Shown here: positions 1,218-7,165 of the stretch, one piece after another
How the letters are laid out: every line of letters begins with the position of its first letter
Numbering within the stretch: the stretch's first letter is position 1
Notes under the pieces: model-generated
What the model was told of the DNA's origin: nothing
What the model saw: the letters and a program-made list of their open reading frames with translations, nothing else
Databases searched by the model: none
Position numbers and translations under genes: made by a program
Source of the DNA: an uncultured bacterium
GTDB lineage: Bacteria; CALINM01
Direction of reading: 5' to 3'
Length of the DNA stretch: 9,927 bases
NCBI GenBank assembly: GCA_938045315.1
Contig: CALINM010000098.1
Location: forward strand, 1 to 9,927

Positions 1218-2922
1218 AGAAATAGCAAAGATATTTGATGAACTGGGAGACATGCTTGAATTCCTGGGGGAAAACCCTTTTCGTGCCAGGGCCTATAAAA
1301 GGGCATCACAGATTATTTATGGGCTTCCTGAGGATATTGAAAAACTGTACTCATCAGGGAAACTTTCAGAAATAAAAGGTATTGGAGAGAGTATTATACA
1401 TAAGATCGGCGAATTCATAGAAACAGGAAAAATTTCAGCATATGATGAGTATCGTTCGAAAATACCTGAGGGGCTATTAGAGCTTTTAAGTGTGCCATAC
1501 ATAGGACCTGTAACTCTTCGGACCCTTTATAAAACTTTACACATAACAAATTTTGATGAACTAATTAAAGCTTGTGAAGATAAGTTAGTTAGGAATCTTC
1601 CTAACTTTGGCCCCAAAAAAGAAGAAAATATTTTAAAAGGGCTACTAAGATATAAAGAACAGATATTTAGATATCCAATCGGGCTAATATTTGATGATAT
1701 TATTAAACTCATTGAAGACATTAAAAATATTACTGGTGTAATTAGAGCTGAAGTCGCTGGCAGTTTTAGAAGGATGAAAGAAACAATAGGCGACATAGAT
1801 ATCCTTGCCTCTGGTAAAAGTACAACAGAAATAATTAGAAATTTTACAAAATTACCTGTGATTAAAGAAGTTATATCAGAGGGTGAAACAAAATGCTCTG
1901 TTGTTCTTTCAACGGGAATGCAAGCAGATCTAAGGGTTGTTGATGATAATTCCTATGGTGCCTGCCTTCAATACTTTACTGGTTCTAAAAATCATAATGT
2001 AAAACTTAGAGGAATAGCTAAAGATATGGGATTTAAAATCAATGAGTATGGCATATTTAAAGGTGATAAATTAATCCCCTGCCCTGATGAGGAAATTGTT
2101 TATCAAACTTTAGGCCTGCCATGGATACCACCTGAAATGAGAGAAGATAATGGTGAAATTGAACTGGCTCAAAAAGGCAACTTACCAAAACTTATTGATT
2201 ATAATGAAATTAAGGGAGATGTCCACTTACACTCCACTTATAGTGATGGTGGGGAAAGCATCAAAGTAATGGCAGAGGCGGCAATAAAAAAGGGGTATGA
2301 GTATATTGTTATAACAGATCATTCGCAAAGTCTCAAAATTGCCAAAGGATTAGAAATAGAAAGGCTTTTAAAACAGATGGAAGAGATTGATAAGCTAAAT
2401 AGGGAACTTTTTCCTTTTAAAATCTTTAAAGGTTCAGAAGTAGATATTAAACATGATGGCACATTAGATTACCCTGATGAAGTATTAAAACAACTTGATT
2501 TTGTTATTGCATCTATACACTCGGGTTTTAAAGATGATGAAAAGAAAATGACAAAAAGAATTTTAAACGCCATAGAAAACAAGTATGTAACCATGATTGC
2601 CCATCCCACAGGAAGGATTTTAAATGCCAGAGAACCATATAATGTAAACATCATAGAAGTGTTTAAAATGGCTGCAAAAACAAATACCTTCTTAGAAATA
2701 AACGCATACTTTGACAGATTAGATTTAAATGATGTAAATATAAGAATTGCTAAAGAATATGGTGTAAAATTCTGTATAGGCACAGACTCACACAATTCGA
2801 TTCAATTAAATATGATGATCTATGGAATTGGGCAGGCTCGAAGGGCCTGGTTGACAGCTTCTGATATTATAAATACAAAGAAATTAGAAGATTTCCAAAG
2901 AGCAATAAAAATAAAACGATGA
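1207..2922 (+). CDS. polX: DNA polymerase X with C-terminal PHP nuclease domain
   Basis: This is a bacterial family X DNA polymerase, which fills short gaps in base-excision and break repair. The PHP domain adds a metal-dependent 3'-5' exonuclease and, in some homologues, AP endonuclease. The 571 residues match the usual length of about 570. Helix-hairpin-helix motifs lie near 55-64 (IKGIGESI), 96-108 and 130-143. The palm has GSFRR (185-189), GDID with D196 and D198, a third Asp at D241 (ADLRV), and YFTGSKNHN at 256-264. The PHP metal ligands appear complete: HLHS (340-343), TDHS (370-373), E411, H438, AHPTGR (465-470) and TDSH (526-529). Both activities should therefore be intact. ATG 1207 lies 11 bp inside mscS behind a purine-rich AAGAAAAG, so translation is probably coupled. 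The stop overlaps the next start as ATGA. No functional link to its membrane-protein neighbours is evident. Confidence 0.96.
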   Translation: MKNKEIAKIFDELGDMLEFLGENPFRARAYKRASQIIYGLPEDIEKLYSSGKLSEIKGIGESIIHKIGEFIETGKISAYDEYRSKIPEGLLELLSVPYIGPVTLRTLYKTLHITNFDELIKACEDKLVRNLPNFGPKKEENILKGLLRYKEQIFRYPIGLIFDDIIKLIEDIKNITGVIRAEVAGSFRRMKETIGDIDILASGKSTTEIIRNFTKLPVIKEVISEGETKCSVVLSTGMQADLRVVDDNSYGACLQYFTGSKNHNVKLRGIAKDMGFKINEYGIFKGDKLIPCPDEEIVYQTLGLPWIPPEMREDNGEIELAQKGNLPKLIDYNEIKGDVHLHSTYSDGGESIKVMAEAAIKKGYEYIVITDHSQSLKIAKGLEIERLLKQMEEIDKLNRELFPFKIFKGSEVDIKHDGTLDYPDEVLKQLDFVIASIHSGFKDDEKKMTKRILNAIENKYVTMIAHPTGRILNAREPYNVNIIEVFKMAAKTNTFLEINAYFDRLDLNDVNIRIAKEYGVKFCIGTDSHNSIQLNMMIYGIGQARRAWLTASDIINTKKLEDFQRAIKIKR

Positions 2923-3704
2923 AAAAAATTTTAGATTTTTTGTTTGATAGAGTATTAGGTACCACTTATAACTTAGTATCTTTTTTTTACATTTGCATAG
3001 AAGCTTTTTTTAAAAACTTTCCAAAAGGCATAAATTTATTTTTCAATATATGTAAGAAACAAATTTACTTCACTGGCATTCAAGCAACTCCCATAACAAT
3101 TTACATTGGTATATTTATGGGTATGGTAGTAGTTACTCAAATTGCATCATTCATCACTGGTATAGGCGATCTATCGACAATTTCTAAAGTCATAAACATA
3201 GGTTTAATGAGAGAAATCATTCCCCTAATTATGGCAATTATAACAATCACAAGGAGCGGCGCTGCTATAACATCGGAATTAAACCTGATGAAAATACATA
3301 ATGAATTTTTAACTTTTAAAAGCTTAGGTATTAACTACATCTACGCCCTGATTTTCAGTAGAATCATCAGTTTTGTTATATCATTAATGGGATTAACAAT
3401 TATAGCCACTTTTATGTCCATATTAAGTGGTGGCTTATCTCTAACTATATTCACAAATATATCATCCGAGGATTTTTTTAATGCTTTTTTTTACCAGATA
3501 TCTATATTTGATATTTTACTTTTACTTTTAAAATCCTTCTTTTTTGGAGTTGCGATATCAACAATATGCTGCTTTTATGGTCTTGTTATAAAAAAAAGTA
3601 TTACTGAAATTCCCCAACTAAATACAAAGGCTATTTCAAAATGTTTTTATTATGTTTTCATCATCAACATTACATTGGACATGCTGGTGGTGATATGGGA
3701 ATAG
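2919..3704 (+). CDS. mlaE: MlaE-type ABC permease of an MCE lipid transporter (divergent)
   Basis: This integral inner-membrane permease should assemble with the MlaD/MCE protein and an ATPase to move phospholipid between inner membrane and periplasm. The 261 residues are normal for the family (about 255-265). An N-terminal amphipathic region is followed by hydrophobic segments near 60-80, 98-115, 140-178 and 195-225, and a final one at 243-260. The diagnostic stretch is REIIPLIMAIITITRSG at 98-114 followed by AAITSELNLMKI at 115-126. It corresponds to the family pattern RE-x-x-P-x-[LM]-x-A ... R-x-G-x-x-I-x-x-EL-x-x-M. The next stretch, normally close to V-T-E-Q-I-D-A-L, reads HNEFLTFKSLG and has lost the usual Q and D. 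Its ATG overlaps the polX stop by 4 bp, and its own end overlaps the next gene by 10 bp, implying coupled translation. Family membership is secure although the sequence is more diverged than usual. Confidence 0.88.
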   Translation: MKKILDFLFDRVLGTTYNLVSFFYICIEAFFKNFPKGINLFFNICKKQIYFTGIQATPITIYIGIFMGMVVVTQIASFITGIGDLSTISKVINIGLMREIIPLIMAIITITRSGAAITSELNLMKIHNEFLTFKSLGINYIYALIFSRIISFVISLMGLTIIATFMSILSGGLSLTIFTNISSEDFFNAFFYQISIFDILLLLLKSFFFGVAISTICCFYGLVIKKSITEIPQLNTKAISKCFYYVFIINITLDMLVVIWE

Positions 3705-4348
3705 TATACGATTTTAGAGATTGTATCTTAAATATTGAAAATGAAACTATGCAAGCTATAAATTTTACAATAAACGAAGGAAATAAAGTTGCAATAGTCT
3801 TTTCACGAGATATTTTTGATGTAGCTTTATTACATTTACTTTTTTTTATTAATAGAGATTATCAAGGACACGCTTTATTTAAAGGTAAAGAATTCAGAGA
3901 TATACCAGATGAAGATATTACGGAAATTTTAACTAAAAAAATACATGTCTCTACTCACTTGCCACTTATAAGCAACCTGAAACTAATAGAAAACGTATAT
4001 TTACCGCTTCTTTATCACACAAATAAATCGGAAAAAGTTCTTTTCAAAGAGGCTTATGAAATTCTAAAACAACTAAAAATAGAAAATAGTTTCAACAAAC
4101 TACCTGCATTTCTTACCAATAATGAGAAGAAACGAGCACTTTTAGCAAGGGCTTTTATGACTGATGCAGAAATTATATATTACTCACATGTGTTAGATGA
4201 TACCAATAAAGAAGAAAGAGAGTTTTATTTGAATTGTATTTTAGATTTTCACAACAAAAGAGAGCAAAGAATAACAATTATGACTTTTAGGCAAAAAATA
4301 CATATACCAGAAAATTTTAAATTTGACAAAATTATAAGTTTAAAATAA
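3695..4348 (+). CDS. mlaF: MlaF-position ABC protein with all ATPase motifs degenerate
   Basis: This gene sits where the MlaF ATPase gene belongs, between permease and MCE genes, and its 217 residues follow the ABC layout. INFTINEGNKVAIV (22-35) matches the strand before Walker A. LISNLKLIENVYLPL (91-105) matches the region after the Q-loop. LTNNEKKRALLARAFMTDAE (140-159) matches the segment from signature to Walker B. Every functional motif is altered: no GxxGxGK[ST] around 37-44, Thr87 where the Q-loop Gln should be, LTNNE for LSGGQ, IIYYSH (160-165) for the Walker B with its catalytic Glu, and no H-loop His near 198 (TFRQ). ATP hydrolysis looks impossible, so a structural or regulatory role is inferred. 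ATG 3695 is chosen because GGTGG (3686-3690) lies just upstream. An upstream in-frame ATG at 3641 would add 18 unlike residues inside mlaE. The open frame argues against a pseudogene. Confidence 0.72.
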   Translation: MGIVYDFRDCILNIENETMQAINFTINEGNKVAIVFSRDIFDVALLHLLFFINRDYQGHALFKGKEFRDIPDEDITEILTKKIHVSTHLPLISNLKLIENVYLPLLYHTNKSEKVLFKEAYEILKQLKIENSFNKLPAFLTNNEKKRALLARAFMTDAEIIYYSHVLDDTNKEEREFYLNCILDFHNKREQRITIMTFRQKIHIPENFKFDKIISLK

Positions 4349-4357
4349 GTTTATACT

Positions 4358-5362
4358 ATGGCTACGATACAAGACATTGACCCAAGATTCAGACATATTG
4401 GTAAGAAAGTTTTTATATTTATAACATTAAGCATCGCCATTTTAATAATTGTAATTTACCAATTAGGTAAAGTAAAAGACATTTTCGCTAAAACTGTTAA
4501 TCTTTACTTTACACACGATACTGCCTTTGAATTATCAGTAAACATGCCTGTTAAACTCGCGGGATTTAGAATAGGTAGGGTCTCAAATATTAATTTAGAT
4601 GAAACAGGACATGTACTTATTGAATTAGAGATAAAAAAAAGGTACCTGAAATGGATTAGGCAGGATTCCACCGCAACAATTAAAAAAGAAGGCTATATAG
4701 GTGAATCTATCATAGAGATATCCTTTGGTTCCTTAGATAAACCTCAGTTAAAAGACGGTGACAAAATAACCTTTGCAAAAACAAAAGGATTAGAAGACAT
4801 TGCAAAAGAAATTGTTGAAGAGTTGAAACCTGTAGCTATAGACGTAAAAAATTTCGTTGAATATATAGTTAATCCCCAAGGTGATGTAACAAAAATATTG
4901 AAAAATACTGCTTTTTTAACTTCCGAGCTTAGAACTACAAATGATGAACTAAGGAAAAGAATTATAGAAACAAGAAGATCTTTAAAAGAACTTGAAGAAA
5001 CTTTAAGAAATGTAAACCAGGCTTCTCAAGATTTACCCAAATTAACAAAAACTGTAGATAACTCTTTACAAGAAATAGAGGCTTTGTCAAAAACACTTAA
5101 TCAGAAAATTCCTGTATTACTCGATGAAACTCAGAAATCACTTGAAGAGATAAACAAAATAGCAAAGGATATATCAAGACAATCTCCTCGTATCGGGATA
5201 ATGATTGACAAAGCTGAAAATATAGCAGACAACGTAGATGATATTACTGAAGCAGTGAAAAAAAGTTGGTTTATTCGCGGGAATCTACCGCCTAGAACTC
5301 CTCCATCTCTTATACCACCTGCTATATTGCTGCCTGAAATTAATAATGGTAAAGAAAAATGA
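4358..5362 (+). CDS. mlaD: MlaD-like MCE-domain protein, membrane-anchored with long coiled coil
   Basis: This is the substrate-binding MCE subunit of the lipid transporter, anchored in the inner membrane and facing the periplasm. A short cytoplasmic N-terminus precedes one membrane helix at about 17-36. The MCE domain spans roughly 46-125 and includes VNMPVKLAGFRIGRV (61-75), matching the family's G-x-x-V-x-[LY]-x-G-[IV]-x-[IV]-G-x-V core, and GYIGESIIEI at 112-121. Residues about 145-300 are heptad-rich, charged and largely without proline, as expected for a helical needle or coiled coil. A WFIRG motif at 304-308 and a proline-rich tail (PPRTPPSLIPP) end the protein. At 334 residues it is longer than E. 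coli MlaD (183 aa), closer to the needle-forming MCE proteins. ATG 4358 lies 9 bp after the previous stop with no clear Shine-Dalgarno, so reinitiation is likely. No mlaC or STAS-domain mlaB gene is present nearby. Confidence 0.92.
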   Translation: MATIQDIDPRFRHIGKKVFIFITLSIAILIIVIYQLGKVKDIFAKTVNLYFTHDTAFELSVNMPVKLAGFRIGRVSNINLDETGHVLIELEIKKRYLKWIRQDSTATIKKEGYIGESIIEISFGSLDKPQLKDGDKITFAKTKGLEDIAKEIVEELKPVAIDVKNFVEYIVNPQGDVTKILKNTAFLTSELRTTNDELRKRIIETRRSLKELEETLRNVNQASQDLPKLTKTVDNSLQEIEALSKTLNQKIPVLLDETQKSLEEINKIAKDISRQSPRIGIMIDKAENIADNVDDITEAVKKSWFIRGNLPPRTPPSLIPPAILLPEINNGKEK

Positions 5363-6186
5363 GAGTTATAACATTATCTTTAATTTTTATTTTTCTGTTT
5401 AGCTGTTCTTCAAAAACAATATTACCTAAAGCACCAATGGTAAAAGAATCAGAACGGATATTAGAAAAAGCTGAAAAATTCTTGCTCTCACAAGATACAG
5501 AAACAAAAGAACTAATTGAAACTGGACTAAGCTTATCAATAGCCACAAATATACCCGATTTAAAAATACGGGCACTTTTACTTAAAGTAAATTATAATAT
5601 CAGAGAAGGCAAAATTGATGAAGCAATAAAAAATTTAAATGCAGCAAAACAAATATCAATTAATGAATCCTCACAATTCATCCCCTATGTAAAATATTAT
5701 GAAACTTTAGTTGCCTATGTTACAAATGATAGTGATGCGCTAAAAAATCTATTAATTGACAATACTAATTACCCTGATCATGTACAAATGGGTATAAACA
5801 TTTTAAAATCCCTGTTTTACATTAACTCAAACGATTTGGTCTCTGCTGAAAAGCATATTAATGAAACTCTTAAGATATCAAATAGTAAAAATTTATTGGT
5901 CGAAAAATCTTTTGCTCTTAAGCTATTGTCATGGATTAATTTCAAAAATAAAAACTTTAATGAAGCATTGGATATAATCAATGAATCGCTTGATATAGAT
6001 AGATCTCTTAACCTTTTAGATTATTTATACTGGGATTTGGAATTTATAGCTAAAATCTATCTAAATAAATACGATAAAGAAAAAGCTCTTTACTATTATA
6101 GTACTGCTTATGAGTTAGCTTTAATAAACAAAAATCAGAATAAAGCAGATTATTTTAAATCAGTAATTCAGAATTTATTGAAATAA
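5359..6186 (+). CDS. Putative TPR lipoprotein at the end of the Mla operon
   Basis: This is a 275-residue protein of unassigned function. Its N-terminus is a lipoprotein signal: a hydrophobic run (about 4-14) and a lipobox-like LFSC (13-16) with C16 as the lipidation site, followed by SSKT. Residue 17 is Ser rather than Asp, which by the E. coli +2 rule would favour outer-membrane sorting. The rest is helical with tetratricopeptide-like repeats, clearest near 70-100 (NIREGKIDEAIKNLNAA), 183-213 (NFNEALDIINESLDID) and 222-256 (DKEKALYYYSTAYELA). The ATG overlaps the mlaD stop as ATGA, so it is co-translated with the MCE genes. By inference it could be an envelope partner or scaffold for the lipid transporter. 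No enzymatic motif is visible, and the family was not recognised beyond TPR. Confidence 0.8.
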   Translation: MRVITLSLIFIFLFSCSSKTILPKAPMVKESERILEKAEKFLLSQDTETKELIETGLSLSIATNIPDLKIRALLLKVNYNIREGKIDEAIKNLNAAKQISINESSQFIPYVKYYETLVAYVTNDSDALKNLLIDNTNYPDHVQMGINILKSLFYINSNDLVSAEKHINETLKISNSKNLLVEKSFALKLLSWINFKNKNFNEALDIINESLDIDRSLNLLDYLYWDLEFIAKIYLNKYDKEKALYYYSTAYELALINKNQNKADYFKSVIQNLLK

Positions 6187-6329: not shown

Positions 6330-7112
6330 TCATTTTGAATTTATGAGATTTTTCAGTTCTTCTTTTGTCCTCCATCCTGAAATTACTTTACCATTTGACA
6401 GAACAATTGCCGGCGTACCACTAATACCAAAACTATTAGCCTGTCTTTTATTTGCAAGGGCATAATTTTCTTTACAACTCAATTTTGGTATCTCTTTACC
6501 CTGATAACTCATTTCAAGCATCTTGATGGCCTCGTCCATATTTTCCTTTGATTTACATAATATTGACTCTGCTTTCCACTGGGCATTGGGATGAATATCA
6601 AGACCGAATAAAATAATATATACTAAAACTTCTTTATCTTCGTTTAATAATTTTTCCAGTTCCTGATGAAGTTTATAGCAATGTGGACATTCAGGATCGC
6701 TGAACACATAAATCTTTTTCTTTCCATTTTTATTACCCATAATTAATGCATTTTTTATAGAAATCTTATTAACATCTATTTTTTTTTGTTCTTCCATTGC
6801 TGATTCAGTAATACTTTTCTTGCCTTCTATATCAATAACATTCCCTATAATTAGATACTTTTTACTAAAATCCAAATAGACAATACCAATTTTAGATTTA
6901 TTATCCTTTACAAAAAGCTCATAAACACCACTAATCTGGGGATAACCAATTTTTTCAACCTTTATGTTAGGATCTAACTTATTTAAAATCTTTGTTGCCT
7001 CTTCTTTAGTAATTTTATGGCAACTTTTACAATCCCCACTTTCCATTTTACTAAAAGCATAACCTAAATTTGAAATGGATATGTAAAAAAGAAAAATTAA
7101 TAATTTTTTCAC
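6330..7112 (-). CDS. dsbC: DsbC/DsbG-like periplasmic thiol:disulfide protein with N-terminal CxxCH motif
   Basis: This is a secreted thioredoxin-fold protein of the DsbC family, which isomerises or reduces disulfides in periplasmic proteins. With the chosen start it has 260 residues. A signal peptide occupies about 1-19 (cleavage after GYA). A short N-terminal domain resembles the DsbC dimerisation domain. The thioredoxin domain begins near 132 with CPHC (142-145) and ends with the cis-proline loop SGTPAIV (231-237). C186 and C213 could form a structural disulfide. CKSCH at 28-32, right after the signal peptide, is a c-type haem-attachment pattern or a second redox pair. GTG at 7112 is preferred because AGGGAGG (7117-7123) precedes it. 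An upstream in-frame ATG at 7155-7157 would place the coding start inside the promoter spacer and spoil the signal peptide. The gene is monocistronic or the end gene of the minus-strand cluster. Confidence 0.87.
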   Translation of the reverse strand: MKKLLIFLFYISISNLGYAFSKMESGDCKSCHKITKEEATKILNKLDPNIKVEKIGYPQISGVYELFVKDNKSKIGIVYLDFSKKYLIIGNVIDIEGKKSITESAMEEQKKIDVNKISIKNALIMGNKNGKKKIYVFSDPECPHCYKLHQELEKLLNEDKEVLVYIILFGLDIHPNAQWKAESILCKSKENMDEAIKMLEMSYQGKEIPKLSCKENYALANKRQANSFGISGTPAIVLSNGKVISGWRTKEELKNLINSK

Positions 7113-7137
7113 AAATCCTCCCTTTAGTTTTAAACGT

Positions 7138-7165
7138 ATTATAACATACACTGGCAAATTTACAA
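7138..7165 (-). promoter_or_regulatory. Extended -10 promoter of the DsbC-like gene
   Basis: On the minus strand TTGTAA (7160-7165) and a perfect TATAAT (7138-7143) are 16 bp apart, and TG-T directly precedes the -10 (TGTTATAAT), forming an extended -10 element. Transcription would start near 7131. That leaves a leader of about 19 nt holding AGGGAGG and the GTG at 7112, which supports the shorter start for this gene. Confidence 0.65.

Follow-up and report, generated by a model that had tools for sequence, protein, structure and literature searches.

A conserved MlaF homologue without ATPase motifs in a second type of bacterial MlaE/MCE operon, a probable ATP-independent lipid conduit

The route by which phospholipids reach the outer membrane, and the direction in which Mla systems move them, are the subject of a long-standing argument that turns on the role of ATP hydrolysis. 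The locus described here raises the question of what an Mla-type operon does when the gene in the ATPase position encodes a protein devoid of ATPase motifs. It lies in a stretch of 9,927 nucleotides, hereafter the window, which is the whole of the 9.9-kb contig C98 of genome G000 (1.86 Mb, 92% complete). The original prediction, made from the letters of this DNA, held that a complete pseudo-ATPase gene lies between mlaE and mlaD and suggested that it has been kept by selection for a non-catalytic role.

The gene, which we call pseudo-mlaF, occupies positions 3695 to 4348 of the forward strand and forms a frame of 217 codons from ATG to TAA with no internal stops. Its 217-residue product scores 24.7 bits against the Pfam ABC_tran profile (PF00005), just below the cut-off of 25, and 25.8 bits with neighbours. 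Matches to the NCBIfam LolD profile (1.9e-18) and to LolD in the PDB (1.4e-11) likewise indicate an ABC ancestry. When a profile of three pseudo-MlaF sequences was aligned with canonical MlaF by profile-profile comparison (hhalign), the two matched over 194 columns with a probability of 98.6%, and the sequence profiles place pseudo-MlaF in the ABC family. An AlphaFold2 single-sequence model reached a pLDDT of only 46 and gave no usable fold. The frame and the profile matches confirm that an intact ABC ATPase-like gene lies between mlaE and mlaD.

The positions of the catalytic motifs were read from the alignment of pseudo-MlaF to canonical MlaF, supplemented for Walker A by the alignment of orthologues. 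The former Walker A motif (3800 to 3823, forward strand) reads FSRDIFDV and does not fit GxxxxGK[ST]. The Q-loop reads VSTHLPL, with Thr in place of Gln, and the former signature motif (4112 to 4135, forward strand) reads LTNNEKKR instead of LSGGQ/M. In the former Walker B motif (4172 to 4192, forward strand), which reads IIYYSHV, Ser replaces the Asp and His replaces the Glu, and in the former H-loop (4280 to 4294, forward strand; MTFRQ) the His has become Arg. The alignment bears out the predicted absence of all five motifs. Judged by its sequence, pseudo-MlaF descends from the ABC ATPases without having kept their chemistry, and its identity as a real, conserved, ATPase-dead MlaF homologue is well supported.

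Pseudo-mlaF is flanked by the expected partners of a lipid transporter. Upstream is mlaE (2919 to 3704, forward strand), which encodes a 261-residue permease carrying the motif KSITEIPQ. This protein scores 157.5 bits against PF02405 (cut-off 22.5), which is the only family that it matches at E ≤ 1; it is not of the PqiA/LetA type. Downstream is mlaD (4358 to 5362, forward strand), which encodes a 334-residue MCE protein (PF02470, 55.9 bits, cut-off 25.1) with a long helical C-terminal region. The fourth gene of the cassette (5359 to 6186, forward strand) encodes a TPR lipoprotein (TPR_2, 34.5 bits) with a Cys after FLFS, the lipobox being judged by eye. The start of pseudo-mlaF overlaps the stop of mlaE by 10 nt, 9 nt separate its end from mlaD, and the start of the lipoprotein gene overlaps the mlaD stop. 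Starts and stops overlap or almost touch throughout the operon; this arrangement, and the 10-nt overlap of mlaE and pseudo-mlaF in particular, suggests translational coupling. Two further genes adjoin the cassette. A PolX-type DNA polymerase gene (HHH, Pol beta and PHP domains) at 1207 to 2922 on the forward strand has a stop that overlaps the mlaE start; it adjoins the operon in G001 and does not in G002. On the reverse strand, the gene at 6330 to 7157 encodes a CPHC thioredoxin-like motif (DsbC/DsbG-like by eye) together with an N-terminal CKSCHK (CxxCH), and G001 has a similar gene at the same place.

Comparison within the phylum covered three genomes: G000, G001 from the same genus and G002 from the same family. 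The same four genes occur in G001 and G002 in unchanged order, with identities to the window of 65% and 38% for the F protein and of 84% and 57% for MlaD in the two orthologous operons. All five motif losses are common to both orthologues, so that relatives with normal Walker motifs were not encountered. Errors of sequencing or assembly are ruled out as their cause, since G001 and G002 show the same losses. Two stretches of pseudo-MlaF stand out as conserved among the three orthologues, namely a new motif, RD[IL][FY]D, at the former P-loop, and SNLKLIEN, directly after the former Q-loop, which is invariant. Using our own Nei-Gojobori script, we obtained a dN/dS of 0.146 for pseudo-mlaF against G001, with dS near saturation, and values of 0.12-0.34 for the F gene where pairs drawn from other phyla had a dS of less than 1. 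These values are mostly two to three times those of mlaE and lie far below 1 throughout, indicating that pseudo-mlaF is under purifying selection. Together with the orthologues they lead us to reject local decay, and the shared losses and the low dN/dS support the predicted selection for a non-catalytic role.

The F-gene profile proved too general to single out the family in genomes, and a profile of the window-type MlaE was used instead. It was searched in 386 genomes across the domain and then in greater depth within four phyla, those of G263, G336, G113 and G172, and well over a hundred mlaE neighbourhoods were recovered; a search for related loci in named genomes returned only one distant ATPase. 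Neither for the window's phylum (3 genomes) nor for that of G336 (24 genomes) did the search carry a label marking it as a sample from a larger group, and no genome is common to the lists for the phyla of G263, G113 and G172. On account of these search labels and separate lists, the window's phylum and the other four appear to be five different ones. Further carriers (G090, G107, G142, G148, G166, G287 and more) are not counted in the phyla.

The recovered MlaE proteins split into two clades with 100/100 support, and the window MlaE falls outside the canonical one. A diagnostic position near the C-terminus is Pro in the window type (TE[IV]PQ) and Gly in canonical MlaE. The partner proteins follow this division. 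Among loci with a scorable partner F (which excludes L165, where the gene is cut by the end of the locus, and L183), the Gly-type MlaEs are accompanied in 33/33 cases by an MlaF with Walker A, Q, SGG, Walker B Asp and Glu, and His, and none of the 82 Pro-type partners has all six motifs. SGG is absent from every Pro-type F (0/82), Walker A is kept in 32/82, Q in 23/82 and the Walker B Glu in 16/82; His was scored in 12, a figure that includes chance alignments in shortened proteins. In 34 of the 82, Walker A, Q, SGG, Glu and His have been lost together. The tallies include many close relatives whose losses are not independent events, and counts on the MlaE tree are the fairer measure: one change for the signature and seven for Walker A, which fits an early abandonment of hydrolysis followed by repeated erosion of the remaining motifs. 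The loci were picked by similarity to the window-type MlaE, and intermediate types may be unsampled. Two loci with a degenerate F (L257 and L271) stand outside the 82, their MlaE having neither Pro nor Gly at the diagnostic position. The sole break in the two-clade split is a matter of labelling: L152, a locus in which no F gene was found, was grouped with the window type although it has a canonical MlaE.

Part of the family may still bind ATP, as the retained Walker A motifs and the occasional Walker B Glu indicate. In L041 (G172) and L260-L262 (G589, G570, G606), F keeps Walker A and is without SGG and the H-loop His; here ATP binding may still be possible, and these proteins could represent an intermediate stage. 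Other arrangements were also seen. The window-type MlaE of L201 (G398) and L259 (G611) has neither an F nor an MCE gene adjoining it. In L264 (G614; 3-2361), a gene with a metallo-beta-lactamase fold (by eye) lies between a window-type mlaE and a downstream F with Walker A, and in L263 (G578) a metallo-beta-lactamase-fold gene follows mlaE, with no F on the available stretch.

Beyond the permease and its partner, a lipoprotein-like gene lies 3' of mlaD in about 12 of 20 inspected neighbourhoods in addition to the window (lipobox by eye). TPR repeats exceed the Pfam cut-off in 7 of the 9 fourth-gene proteins tested, as they do in the window; they are weak in G002 and absent in G113. The cassette with a TPR lipoprotein was found again in several phyla. 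The view of the operon as a single case was not borne out, as it is a member of a multi-phylum clade, and on these comparisons it represents a second type of lipid-transport operon that is widespread among bacteria.

What this second type has retained in its F proteins points to the permease. In ABC transporters, the segment of the nucleotide-binding domain (NBD) that follows the Q-loop meets the coupling helix of the membrane subunit. In pseudo-MlaF this segment, PLISNLKLIENVYLPLLYH (3962 to 4018, forward strand), holds the invariant SNLKLIEN and is expected to face the MlaE coupling helix. The position of N94 in P0001 is Asn in 80/82 window-type F proteins and Ser in 33/33 canonical MlaFs (Asn in 0/33), and at Y107 of P0001 Tyr replaces the canonical Glu. 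In MlaE, a coupling-helix Glu that is invariant in the canonical clade is replaced in the Pro type. The same segment is kept in the phylum of G113, where the F proteins of several families (L193, L238, L241-L256) are about 162-175 residues long and have the N-terminal half, with the P-loop, deleted. These short proteins match the window F with a probability of 97% over 66 columns at 38% identity, in a stretch holding SNLxxxEN, and match canonical MlaF more weakly (89.6%). The loss of the P-loop half excludes an ABC ATPase function for the predicted proteins.

All three genomes of the window's phylum carry a second, canonical MlaE beside a fully conserved MlaF. G000 has one intact canonical mlaEFD, whose MlaF scores 403 bits against the canonical MlaF profile, the next ATPase reaching 201 bits; the search for an MlaF away from the window mlaE, proposed with the original prediction, thus returned a single canonical protein.

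Given these findings, we favour, with a confidence somewhat above even, a reading in which pseudo-MlaF is an NBD-like, non-catalytic subunit of a second, ancient MlaE/MCE transporter type, in which MlaE, the MCE protein and the lipoprotein form a conduit that operates without ATP. We infer that two pseudo-MlaF chains would sit beneath the MlaE dimer, at the place of MlaF, and would act as a scaffold, with the conserved segment that follows the Q-loop as its hold on the permease. Each composite ATP site of an ABC dimer is made of the Walker motifs of one chain and the signature of the other. Since pseudo-MlaF is without both sides, its homodimer has no site and pairing with MlaF would not yield a complete one either, and in G000 pseudo-MlaF is predicted neither to bind nor to hydrolyse ATP. 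The window transporter probably works without ATP, with MlaE, an MCE hexamer and the lipoprotein making up a putative trans-envelope lipid conduit, and the ATP-driven work would fall to the canonical MlaEFD of the same genome. MlaFEDB is reported, by hydrolysing ATP, to keep lipids from passing spontaneously from MlaD to MlaC (PMC10212509), and a motorless version would therefore be expected to flow passively. Flow through the conduit would most likely be passive, down a lipid gradient and towards the outer membrane, though a further ATPase or a different energy source may take part.

The canonical MlaF of G000 also lends itself to another explanation, that pseudo-MlaF is accessory or regulatory and that a true ATPase encoded elsewhere energises the window-type MlaE, either replacing pseudo-MlaF or pairing with it. 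A suitable ATPase is at hand in this genome, and sharing of an ATPase between MCE systems is known from mycobacteria (MceG). However, the absence of a complete composite site speaks against the heterodimer, as does the co-divergence of the permease-facing positions (Ser to Asn and Glu to Tyr relative to MlaF, with the coupling-helix Glu of MlaE replaced), and full replacement would leave a conserved pseudo-MlaF without its site. The heterodimer put forward in the original prediction is weakened by these observations, and we regard energisation in trans as unlikely. It is also improbable, in our estimate, that pseudo-MlaF is a plug or sensor that keeps MlaE shut until a cytoplasmic signal or a ligand at the former nucleotide pocket opens it. 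The conserved RD[IL][FY]D motif would fit such a new binding role in the window's phylum, but the former P-loop varies from one phylum to another and is missing altogether in that of G113, which argues against a ligand site common to the family.

Two further explanations would detach pseudo-MlaF from transport altogether. The complex of pseudo-MlaF with MlaE is a predicted one, and the protein could instead work independently of MlaE, for instance as an adaptor in solution, its place in the operon reflecting co-regulation only. We consider this very unlikely, given that its best-conserved segment is the expected permease contact and that the type of this segment switches with the MlaE clade. 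That the gene is a non-functional relic in decay might be suggested by the loss of its catalytic motifs and by a rate of evolution mostly about two to three times that of mlaE, but neither the three genomes of the phylum nor the related operons show a damaged frame, dN/dS is far below 1, the interface segment is conserved and the operon has been maintained across several phyla. A relic is hardly credible in the face of this evidence.

The favoured reading, a transporter built on a non-catalytic NBD-like subunit, can be set beside known systems. The canonical MlaFEDB and MlaEFD systems of E. coli and Veillonella parvula share with the window the E-F-D gene order, the MlaE permease, the MCE protein and a homologous F. 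They differ in that the window F is without any ATPase motif and its MlaE falls in a clade of its own, in which TE[IV]PQ takes the place of a Gly-rich segment; in addition, a TPR lipoprotein gene follows in the window and there is no mlaB or mlaC among the adjoining genes. The Mpc system of Brucella abortus likewise consists of four genes, for a permease, an F protein, an elongated MCE protein and a lipoprotein, but MpcF is reported as an ABC ATPase whose transporter is well conserved, MpcE carries a fused STAS domain and the lipoprotein resembles PqiC (PMC12436622). No ATPase domain is present in the MCE system PqiABC (PMC12436622, PMC10897342), and its authors leave open whether it is passive or is driven by an unidentified ATPase or the proton motive force (PMC10897342). 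In PqiABC and LetAB of E. coli, as in the window operon, the inner-membrane protein that accompanies the MCE conduit has no ATPase, and the Pqi system includes an outer-membrane lipoprotein. The fold of PqiA and LetA differs from that of MlaE, and PqiC has an ABC auxiliary lipoprotein domain (DUF330) where the window lipoprotein has TPR repeats (PMC10897342). The window operon probably encodes a lipid conduit that is independent of ATP and can in principle be compared with PqiABC. Among ABC proteins, the heterodimeric exporters TAP, TM287/288 and CFTR also have degenerate NBD motifs kept by selection. These exporters retain one complete ATP site, whereas a pseudo-MlaF homodimer would have none and its operon is without a canonical partner.

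In the open-access literature, a scope that leaves out most subscription papers and all bioRxiv preprints, we found no description of an ATPase-dead MlaF family. A survey of Mla in 1083 genomes does not contain the word 'degenerate', we found no account of an ATPase-dead MlaF in it, and it cites 'uncertainty of MlaF annotations' (PMC10665443). Annotation pipelines would probably call such genes 'ATP-binding protein' or miss them, and surveys of Mla may for this reason have mixed the two types.

We see an even chance that a clade found in at least five phyla gave up ATP, that its NBD is now structural, with half of it deleted in one phylum, and that lipids move through its transporters without hydrolysis. 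This would be an unusually extreme case among ABC proteins, with both NBDs of a homodimer dead and half of the domain deleted in one lineage. A natural MlaE/MCE family from which evolution has removed the motor would be a direct test of the role of ATP. If lipids do still move in this family, then the MlaE-MCE core would be a passive conduit and ATP would only set the direction.
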